From positions 126,001 through 190,000 of IMG/VR virus record IMGVR_UViG_3300025096_000001: DNA of 64,000 nucleotides; one strand, given 5' to 3'. Origin of the DNA: a virus. This document shows, one piece after another, positions 56,946 to 60,263 of the stretch; position 1 is the stretch's first letter, and the number at the start of each line of letters is the position of its first letter. The notes under the pieces are model-generated. The model saw nothing but the letters and a program-made list of their open reading frames with translations. It made no database searches and was not told where the DNA came from. A program made the position numbers and the translations under genes.

Positions 56946-57041
56946 ATAACTTGTCCTACCCAATGATTCTGTTCCAGCCACCTCGGAACAGGATCTTTCT
57001 GTGGGCAGTGGCCTCGCCCAAAGGAGAATATTTCAAGTTAT
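56946..57041 (-). ncRNA. Candidate three-way-junction RNA with complementary loops
   Basis: On the minus strand the outer stem pairs ATAACTTG (57041-57034) with CAAGTTAT (56953-56946), 8 bp, and TCCT with AGGA continues it after an 8-nt bulge. Inside are two hairpins. P2 is TGGGC/GCCCA with loop GAGGCCACT (57007-57015). P3 is CTGTTCC/GGAACAG, extended by GAT/ATC across one mismatch, with loop GAGGTGGCT (56976-56984). GCCAC in the first loop is complementary to GTGGC in the second, so a kissing interaction is possible. It lies between the capsid gene terminator and the next head gene and begins at about the start site expected from the octamer at 57044. No known riboswitch consensus was recognised. 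Confidence 0.55.
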
Positions 57042-59063: not shown

Positions 59064-60263
59064 CTATTTGATGCCTGCTAGTCTTTTCAGTCTATCCGAA
59101 ACCGGATCGGCTGAAGTGCTTTCCTTGCGGGTAGCACGTATTACAGAAGAACGACGGCTGATTGCTTCGCCCAGTGATTGTGGTCCACGCTTAGGCGTTG
59201 ACTGCACTGTGCTTTCAAGCGTATCATAAATTGTACGCGCTTCTGTGACAGAACCAGCATTAGAAATTGCTTCGACAATCTTTTCTTTTTGTCGCTCATT
59301 CAAGGAGGTATTTCTAAGAACACGGTTCGTGTATAGTAAACGAGCATTGGACAAATTAACGTCTTGTAGACTTTCTTTAAGCTGCCCAACAGCTTGTTCG
59401 TATTGAGAAAGTTTCTCAGTGAGTTGGTTATTTTCAAAAACCAACTCTTCTTGAGCTTTCTTTAAATCTTTCATTTCTTCTTCAACTTCAGTTGATCGGC
59501 GATGAGCAAATTCTTTTTCTATTTGTCTCTTCTGATCTGCACCAGACCGGCCGGCCCAGCCAGAGAGGTCGGCGCCCATATCAACTGTGAGTTTTTCCAT
59601 AATGGCATCAACAAGTGCGTCGACATTTTCTTCCATGCCTTTCATCGCTTCCTCGTCTTGTTCGCCGGCAGCCGCAACTTGGGCCGCGGCAGCTTCGCCT
59701 TCGCCGGCGCTACCATCAGAATCGGCCATTTCGCCAGAGCCTTGAGGATCTTCACTATCATCTTCATTCAGATCTACTTCGATCTCCTCGTCTTCAAGGA
59801 GAGAAGCAATATCTTCTTCATTAATCTCTATCTCTTCATCTTCAGAGAGTTCGTTTTCTAATTTTAGAACAGCCTCTTGGAGAGCTTGTAAATCAACATT
59901 AAACTCTACGGGGGTGCCTGAACTTACTGATCCTTCGAATCCGTCTACTGCTGACAGTGGTACATCAGGCGCTATATCGGCTTCTGGGGCAACTTCTTCC
60001 TCGCCAGCGAGAGACGTTATGGGATCTTCTGCGGCCATTGGATCTTCAGCGGCCATTGGATCTTCTGCGGCCATTGGATCTTCTGCGGCCATTGGATCGG
60101 CTGCAGGCTCTATAGCCATCTCTTCTTCTTGTTCCAATAGTTGGTCAAGCGTGCGTTTGACTTCGTTGGAATATTTGTCGATTATAGCAGACTCAGCGTT
60201 TTTAAGGGCAGCTTCTTTTAGTGCTTTTGCATCAACAATGGCTTCGTTCAATAAATTAGACAT
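59064..60263 (-). CDS. Prohead core/scaffold protein (gp22-like)
   Basis: This 399-aa protein is very acidic and begins MSNLLNEAIVDAKALKEAAL. DPMAAE tandem repeats lie near residues 57-82, followed by a long Glu/Asp-rich middle. A coiled coil covers residues 270-320 (EEEMKDLKKAQEELVFENNQ), and the C-terminus is basic (RRSSVIRATRKE). Location immediately before the capsid gene and composition fit T4 gp22. It would shape the prohead and be degraded on maturation. An ACTATTTA octamer lies 37 nt upstream. Confidence 0.8.
   Translation of the reverse strand: MSNLLNEAIVDAKALKEAALKNAESAIIDKYSNEVKRTLDQLLEQEEEMAIEPAADPMAAEDPMAAEDPMAAEDPMAAEDPITSLAGEEEVAPEADIAPDVPLSAVDGFEGSVSSGTPVEFNVDLQALQEAVLKLENELSEDEEIEINEEDIASLLEDEEIEVDLNEDDSEDPQGSGEMADSDGSAGEGEAAAAQVAAAGEQDEEAMKGMEENVDALVDAIMEKLTVDMGADLSGWAGRSGADQKRQIEKEFAHRRSTEVEEEMKDLKKAQEELVFENNQLTEKLSQYEQAVGQLKESLQDVNLSNARLLYTNRVLRNTSLNERQKEKIVEAISNAGSVTEARTIYDTLESTVQSTPKRGPQSLGEAISRRSSVIRATRKESTSADPVSDRLKRLAGIK
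60022..60093 (-). repeat. Four tandem 18-bp repeats in scaffold gene
   Basis: Four 18-bp units begin at 60022, 60040, 60058 and 60076, with one mismatch in the second. They encode a six-residue MAAEDP unit. Near-identity of units at the DNA level points to recent slippage expansion. Confidence 0.9.

Follow-up and report, generated by a model that had tools for sequence, protein, structure and literature searches.

The question raised by this locus is whether the interval between a phage capsid gene and the next head gene encodes a structured RNA and, if so, of what kind and in what role. The window (the whole stretch of DNA analysed, 64,000 nucleotides) is part of a 195-kb virus record and carries on its minus strand, in this order, a gp23-like capsid gene, a terminator, a late-promoter octamer, the candidate RNA, a palindrome, a Shine-Dalgarno sequence, a 189-aa gene and a second terminator (Table 1). 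As the downstream gene has its own promoter and its own terminator, its transcript is monocistronic. Each of the small genes 3' of the capsid gene (window 56319-56000) likewise has its own terminator and late promoter, the next units showing a terminator (56319-56292), an octamer (56281-56274), a terminator (56060-56039) and then another octamer, so that the head region is transcribed as single-gene units. On the 5' side of the capsid gene, a 399-aa gene (window 59064-60263) contains a run of near-identical AAEDPM repeats.

Table 1. Features of the locus, in the order in which they lie on the minus strand of the window.
Feature	Sequence or product	Position	Strand	Basis or remark
Capsid gene, upstream of the RNA	gp23-like major capsid protein, 610 aa	57183-59015	minus	PHROG 138 major head protein, E 6e-69
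Terminator hairpin 3' of capsid gene		57153-57128	minus	sequence
Late-promoter octamer	ACTATTTA	57051-57044	minus	sequence
Structured RNA as first delimited		57041-56946	minus
Outer strands	ATAACTTG and CAAGTTAT	57041-57034 and 56953-56946	minus	sequence
Inferred transcript start (+1)	first letter of ACUUG	57038	minus	octamer spacing and T4 late-promoter rule; no RNA data
P1a 5' strand	ACUUG	57038-57034	minus	97% of cells paired; the 8 letters ATAACTTG if the transcript starts at 57041
P1b 5' strand	UAUUC	57030-57026	minus	89% of cells paired; double changes at all five pairs
Potential anti-Shine-Dalgarno, within P1b/J12/P2	UUCUCCUU	57028-57021	minus	CTCC invariant (90/90); Shine-Dalgarno pairing in the pseudoknot-free MFE fold
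P2 5' strand	CUUUGGGC	57023-57016	minus	covariation of 22-40 and 25-37 significant after ancestry correction
Loop L2, 9 nt	DNA GAGGCCACT / RNA GAGGCCACU	57015-57007	minus	kissing GCCAC at 57012-57008
P2 3' strand	GCCCACAG	57006-56999	minus	covariation
P3 5' strand	GAUCCUGUUCC	56995-56985	minus	five P3 pairs significant after ancestry correction
Loop L3, 9 nt	DNA GAGGTGGCT / RNA GAGGUGGCU	56984-56976	minus	kissing GUGGC at 56981-56977
P3 3' strand	GGAACAGAAUC	56975-56965	minus	covariation
P1b 3' strand	GGGUA	56961-56957	minus	alignment of 90
P1a 3' strand	CAAGU	56953-56949	minus	alignment of 90
Palindrome	TTATTGCAATAA	56949-56938	minus	overlaps the 3' end of P1; may serve as a hairpin or dimer site
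Shine-Dalgarno of downstream gene	AGGAG	56924-56920	minus	sequence; AGGAG in 90/90
Downstream gene	189 aa, probable capsid-associated protein	56911-56342	minus	translation; structure model
Terminator hairpin 3' of downstream gene		56319-56292	minus	23 bases past the gene

The candidate folds as a three-way junction (P1, P2, P3) with a 5-bp loop-loop helix. Taken alone, the window sequence provided only weak evidence, as it folded moderately better than its shuffles (-32.6 kcal/mol, z = -2.5, with 3 of 200 shuffles equally good); the strength of the case is supplied by the relatives. Searches with the capsid and downstream proteins yielded 84 loci on other viral contigs, 23 of which had the RNA at the same place, and DNA-pattern searches added many further members, including five (L255, L266, L277, L314, L337) gained with a second-class pattern that otherwise returned mostly chance matches. 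The final alignment comprised 90 relatives, all IMG/VR contigs, and the RNA is now known on more than 100 contigs of public viral metagenomes. These are taken to be marine phages, a view that rests on the sequence names of the relatives and general knowledge of the collection rather than on a check of each source.

Among the 90 aligned relatives the site was the interval separating the gp23-like capsid gene from the gene that follows. Where enough upstream sequence was available, a capsid C-terminus preceded the RNA in almost every member, and the next gene usually opened with MG[NSKR]R...; this constant neighbour and usual start point to one genetic niche. A covariance model of 106 positions (R1), searched against whole records, found one copy per genome tested, the only two second matches (E 0.1-0.3) being on the opposite strand and at chance level. 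It found no copy in five relatives with other leaders. Among named phages, the nearest ones (Microcystis phage Mel-JY01, Rhodothermus RM378 and Flavobacterium immuto) had no copy in their capsid regions, nor had two uncultured phage genomes in theirs; when the leader was compared with named phages by DNA similarity, nothing relevant emerged, only short AT-rich matches, and one loop-1/loop-2 pattern had no match in GTDB genome contigs. On a capsid-protein tree (FastTree, 154 rows, in which L178 and L337 were labelled RNA-less though the RNA is present), the presence of the RNA changed no more than 14 times, and the kissing type 15 times. The cassette of leader and gene thus appears to have been exchanged between phages, and the repeated kissing types on this tree are therefore not all independent origins.

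The stems and the loop-loop helix were supported by compensatory changes. For 59 members aligned with MAFFT, standard pairs filled 91.3% of the pair cells and the covariation score was 0.301, compared to 0.146 ± 0.006 for shuffled alignments; in the model-based alignment of 90 members, these values were 93.3%, 0.353 and 0.152 ± 0.005, respectively. When partners were slid by 1-3 columns in the latter, the score dropped to 0.05-0.08. All five kissing pairs were perfect in 90 of 90 members, without a single broken pair, and occurred as GCCAC/GUGGC (72 members), GCGGC/GCCGC (14), GCCGC/GCGGC (2) and GCCCC/GGGGC (2). One DNA pattern demanded GCCAC/GUGGC, so its members were preselected for that pairing; the sets free of this selection (the 23 protein-based loci, with three types, and those from a loop-free DNA pattern) also had zero broken pairs. 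The GCCGC/GCGGC type arose in two different RNA backgrounds (L253 and L266). The joining strands CUCCU, AGAAAGA and UCAUUG were highly conserved.

The alignment was also submitted to an ancestry-aware test in the manner of R-scape, in which substitutions were re-dropped on random branches of a FastTree tree (200 replicates). An earlier run, distorted by misaligned subfamilies and by a 2-nt insert in L015 and L061, did not find the kissing pairs significant. The later run had more members, the insert corrected and the kissing columns kept out of the tree; for the named structure, two kissing pairs were then significant (33-62, E = 1.5e-5, with 4 of 4 changes on the same branches; 32-63, E = 4e-4, with 3 of 3), together with five P3 pairs (E 1.5e-5 to 0.01) and two P2 pairs (E 1.5e-5 and 0.003). 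P1a was nearly invariant and contributed no significance itself. A shared reading frame was rejected as the cause of conservation: no frame was open in more than 36 of the 90 members, and spacing varied in all three phases. Covariation, including the ancestry-aware test, shows that selection acts at the RNA level, and a real RNA with a covarying kissing helix is very likely.

These results bear on the sequence-only reading that had first singled out the interval. Its coordinates, strands and 9-nt loops containing GCCAC and GTGGC held exactly, on the sequence itself; its three-way junction with kissing loops was confirmed by covariation; its position between the capsid terminator and the next head gene was invariable after the capsid gene; and its statement that no known riboswitch matches held in Rfam searches. 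It would have been refuted by homologous gaps without compensatory changes or by a reading frame kept across homologues; compensatory changes do exist and no frame is kept, so the claim stands. It had missed the inner stem P1b, which is added here. The letters of its 8-bp outer stem were correct, yet only 5 bp (ACUUG/CAAGU) are probably present in the RNA: three letters at the 5' end precede the inferred start, and the 3' TTAT is equally part of the palindrome.

This palindrome lies directly 3' of P1 and shares its last letters. It was perfect over 12-16 bp in 87 of the 90 members, in six sequence versions ((G)TTATTGCAATAA(C), AAGTTATCGATAACTT, GGTTATCGATAACC, (T)GGTTACGTAACC(A), GGTTAACGTTAACC and GTTAACGTTAAC). 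Two of the three exceptions (L015 and L061) retained only ATAATTAT, while L266, also among the 90, and L182, outside them, had GTTGTTGCAATAAC, in which the palindrome is broken on DNA and an RNA hairpin with one G-U remains possible, as GUUGUUGCAAUAAC can still pair with a G-U. The centre was self-complementary in every version (TGCA, TCGA or ACGT); therefore a dimer, of the RNA or of a DNA-binding protein, is as possible as a hairpin.

The proposed start of the RNA at the expected transcript start of the octamer held as a fixed spacing, the start itself being inferred. The octamer was ACTATTTA in 59 cases and ACTAATTA in 17, and the distance from octamer to ACTTG was 5 nt in 63 members and 6 nt in 19 (82 of 88 measured). 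T4 late promoters start transcription 6 nt past the octamer. If the promoters here behave likewise, the 5' end of the monocistronic late mRNA, placed by spacing alone with no start site mapped, probably lies within P1. Among RNA-less relatives, most leaders of genes of this type opened with a hairpin at the corresponding point, in many cases a small one with a tetraloop; of 23 such leaders, 19 had a mostly paired 5' end, compared to 37 of 108 other late leaders on the same contigs (Fisher p = 4e-5) and 33% of shuffles in the same test. It may therefore be the folded 5' end, rather than the junction sequence, that is selected. Unrelated genes placed after the capsid gene (L028, L041, L055, L056) had short, unstructured leaders.

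Further elements were observed around late promoters. A conserved AT-rich DNA element of ~50 bp (GATCTGCCAAATTTTTTCGCCGGTAAATTTTTGAGATTTTCGTTTTT; window 57114-57064, minus strand) also occurred at L011:6900, L019:3461, L041:6881 and L051:4970 and in L122, L156 and L170, usually 11-14 bp upstream of the octamer but in a few cases 6 or 33 bp, whether the RNA was present or not and ahead of differing genes; it may be an upstream promoter element, an enhancer or an origin. Four RNA-less loci (L036, L042, L083, L084) had a second structured leader in the first ~110 nt past the late promoter behind the capsid gene, with a 5' hairpin followed by GGGTAG...CTACCC and CCTAGTATTG...CAATACAGGG hairpins and some compensatory changes, in only four sequences. 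The probable tail-sheath gene had its own recurring late leaders (ATGATTG..ACATCAATT; TGATTAGCTTATAATT...AATTATAA) with possible 5'-end folding (L010:10648, L044:10695, L008:10586, L007:11737 and others; in the window, the gene starting MSVKSFKFVSPGVFINEI, reverse-strand 10693). Ahead of a late gene starting MAYLFQSG or MAYKFQLG (L027:167, L044:1135; reverse-strand 361 in the window), the leader was GC-rich and structured (TGAGCCCACATGCAAATGTGGTGCTTGGGG in L027), its 5' end being strongly paired.

The fold also touches the ribosome site. The conserved UUCUCCUU is complementary to the Shine-Dalgarno sequence of the downstream gene, so folding of the RNA should free the ribosome site. In the pseudoknot-free MFE fold of the whole window leader, the junction was absent and this segment of P1b/J12/P2 paired with the Shine-Dalgarno; CTCC and AGGAG were both invariant (90 of 90). 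Without the kissing helix, which the folding program cannot count, the junction was less stable than the Shine-Dalgarno-paired state by a median of 2.4 kcal/mol (89 members; range -2.8 to +12.7). The 5-bp GC-rich kissing helix could plausibly reverse this predicted order, and the junction is inferred to be complete before the Shine-Dalgarno is transcribed. Evidence that the two segments coevolve was weak: own partners paired at -10.74 kcal/mol compared to -10.47 for swapped partners (permutation p = 0.0005, uncorrected for ancestry), CCTCC and GGAGG co-occurred in only 3 of 7 cases, and such complementarity is partly expected for any CUCC.

The downstream proteins ranged from 149 to 309 aa and had only a short basic N-terminus in common (arginine-rich MGNRRLGRKRL in the family, MGKRIGAQRL in the window protein), the remainder being divergent, a pattern that would suit exchangeable display domains mounted on a capsid anchor. 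The 189-aa protein had no match in Pfam or PHROGs. Its model (mean pLDDT 84) showed an N-terminal helix and a beta-sandwich, with weak PDB matches only, to jelly rolls and carbohydrate-binding modules, and better structural matches to unnamed phage proteins. The earlier placement of the RNA 5' of a virion gene is likely, from position and the jelly-roll-like model, and remains unproven; a role in capsid decoration is likewise probable by position and has not been shown. RNA-less relatives had similar basic N-termini (MGTKRVGLAR, MAKVGRAAR), so the motif more likely docks on the capsid.

Of the three roles first suggested (regulator of late translation in cis, stable RNA, packaged RNA), a cis-acting leader of the late mRNA is favoured and likely, while nothing speaks positively for a free or packaged RNA. 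That its main role is to protect the mRNA and keep translation open is a proposal we would hold no more firmly than its negation, in the absence of start, half-life or translation data. In this proposal, transcription would start at about 57038, placing the mRNA 5' end within P1; P2, P3 and the kissing helix would fold first on emergence, and P1 would close next, before the Shine-Dalgarno is made. With the fold closed, decay that depends on the 5' end would have no single-stranded terminus to act on, so the message would be long-lived; the fold would also lock away UUCUCCUU, otherwise the partner of the Shine-Dalgarno, so that ribosomes load. The leader would support strong late synthesis of the capsid-associated protein and need not respond to any signal. 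RppH and RNase E both depend on 5' ends being single-stranded, which accounts for the stabilising effect of 5' structure (PMC3997798), an argument that applies only if the host, which is not known, has such enzymes. A passive cap would require neither so elaborate a fold nor such conserved joining strands, and this excess hints at a partner that binds the RNA.

The chief rivals, regulated switching and a protein-bound operator, are jointly judged slightly less probable than a leader that mainly protects the mRNA and keeps translation open. As a translational switch (riboswitch, ion or temperature sensor), the junction would be stabilised by a ligand or condition that frees the Shine-Dalgarno, otherwise blocked by UUCUCCUU. 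This remains possible, given that most members have two folds that exclude each other and differ little in computed energy, the topology of the add adenine riboswitch (PMC8191784) and joining strands as conserved as those of ligand pockets. However, the RNA occurs at one gene only, which is late, capsid-associated and without a link to metabolism, the same gene type in a close relative is served by a plain hairpin, no riboswitch family matches, and the covariation between Shine-Dalgarno and anti-Shine-Dalgarno is weak. In the operator view, a phage protein would bind the junction and repress or activate translation, matching supply to capsid number; the binder might be a protein of the capsid or its assembly, or else the downstream protein, with its arginine-rich N-terminus making the contact. 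The basic N-terminus, the conserved junction letters and the well-known autogenous control of T4, e.g. gene 32 (PMC3014915), speak for it, whereas similar N-termini occur in relatives without the RNA and co-occurrence ties no protein to it; without binding data, it is considered unlikely.

Other explanations have less in their favour. An RNA acting in trans, stable or packaged as in the phi29 pRNA layout, with palindrome and loops mediating dimers or rings, cannot be dismissed on loop complementarity alone, which does not separate pairing within a molecule from pairing between molecules, and the palindrome centres are self-complementary in six versions, which a plain hairpin does not need. It is nevertheless very unlikely: the RNA sits in an mRNA leader with the ribosome site right behind, between RNA and gene there is neither a processing site nor a terminator, and T4-like packaging motors are not known to require an RNA. 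A put-like or other antitermination RNA acting on its own RNA polymerase would suit two hairpins at a transcript 5' end; it was rejected on gene layout and is just as improbable, since a monocistronic unit with a terminator 23 bases past the gene leaves nothing to read through. Chance, a coding region or a conserved DNA site alone (for recombination or protein binding) is all but excluded. The apparently exchanged cassette (at most 14 presence changes) and a palindrome that could suit a dimeric DNA-binding protein would fit a DNA site, but stems and loops show compensatory changes, the palindrome is broken on DNA in L182 and L266 while RNA G-U pairing persists, at most 36 of 90 members are open in any frame and length changes shift the frame.

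A bolder reading, which is possible, is a new class of T4-like phage RNA switch, shaped like a purine riboswitch and sensing a signal from phage or host (for instance a protein of the capsid or its assembly, or the nucleotide or ion state late in infection), that would open the Shine-Dalgarno of a capsid-decorating protein only during capsid building, the palindrome allowing RNA dimers. Well-supported tertiary-structured RNAs in late structural genes of DNA phages are rare, and this one, common in viral metagenomes and absent from Rfam 15, covaries well enough for a family to be defined already. It suggests that leader structure, beside promoters and the sliding clamp, is a layer at which late T4-type mRNAs are controlled, and relatives with a simple hairpin or the second structured leader offer natural experiments on the folded 5' end.

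Comparison with known systems started from Rfam 15, in which the region had no match at the gathering score or at E <= 10 and 10 relatives had none at the gathering score. Candidates rejected in these searches were phi29-type pRNA (no match to any Rfam pRNA family), hammerhead and other known self-cleaving ribozymes (no Rfam match) and the purine riboswitch RF00167 (no covariance-model match at E <= 10 in the region, or at the gathering score in the 10 relatives). The phi29 pRNA is also a phage RNA with a three-way junction and complementary loops, but its loops pair between molecules and it is a free part of the motor, whereas the present RNA is fused to an mRNA leader. Marine T4-like cyanophages carry the structured RNAs manA, wcaG and PhotoRC-II (PMC2864571), similarly found by comparing marine metagenomes and T4-like phages; these are tied to metabolic or photosynthesis genes, and all are Rfam families, none of which matches here. 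The leader of T4 gene 32, the most stable T4 message (PMC3014915), shares a structured 5' leader with a pseudoknot-type contact on a T4-type phage mRNA; it has, however, an H-type pseudoknot that nucleates cooperative gp32 binding, in contrast to a kissing-loop junction ahead of a late capsid-adjacent gene. The ompA and papA mRNAs carry 5'-terminal stabilising stem-loops and, if the inferred start is right, resemble the phage leader in pairing at or within a few nt of the 5' end; in both, an AU-rich ribosome site follows the folded leader. Where those mRNAs have one hairpin, the phage leader has ~90 nt in a complex tertiary fold whose junction letters are conserved, and its stabilising effect is unshown. 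In the translational add adenine riboswitch of Vibrio, ligand-free RNA hides the Shine-Dalgarno and bound RNA frees it (PMC8191784); two exclusive states, one hiding the Shine-Dalgarno, are likewise predicted for the phage RNA, with only a weak coevolution signal. Similar in shape is RF00167, also a three-way junction at an mRNA 5' end with P2-P3 loop-loop pairing, a likeness supported by covariation of P1b, P2, P3 and the kissing helix. The phage RNA differs in its 9-nt rather than 7-nt loops with five continuous Watson-Crick pairs, its joining-strand letters, the unequal length of P2 and P3, and its location at a structural gene with no known ligand. We consider it a new leader RNA, very likely structured and placed in no family, that resembles, but is not, a purine riboswitch.
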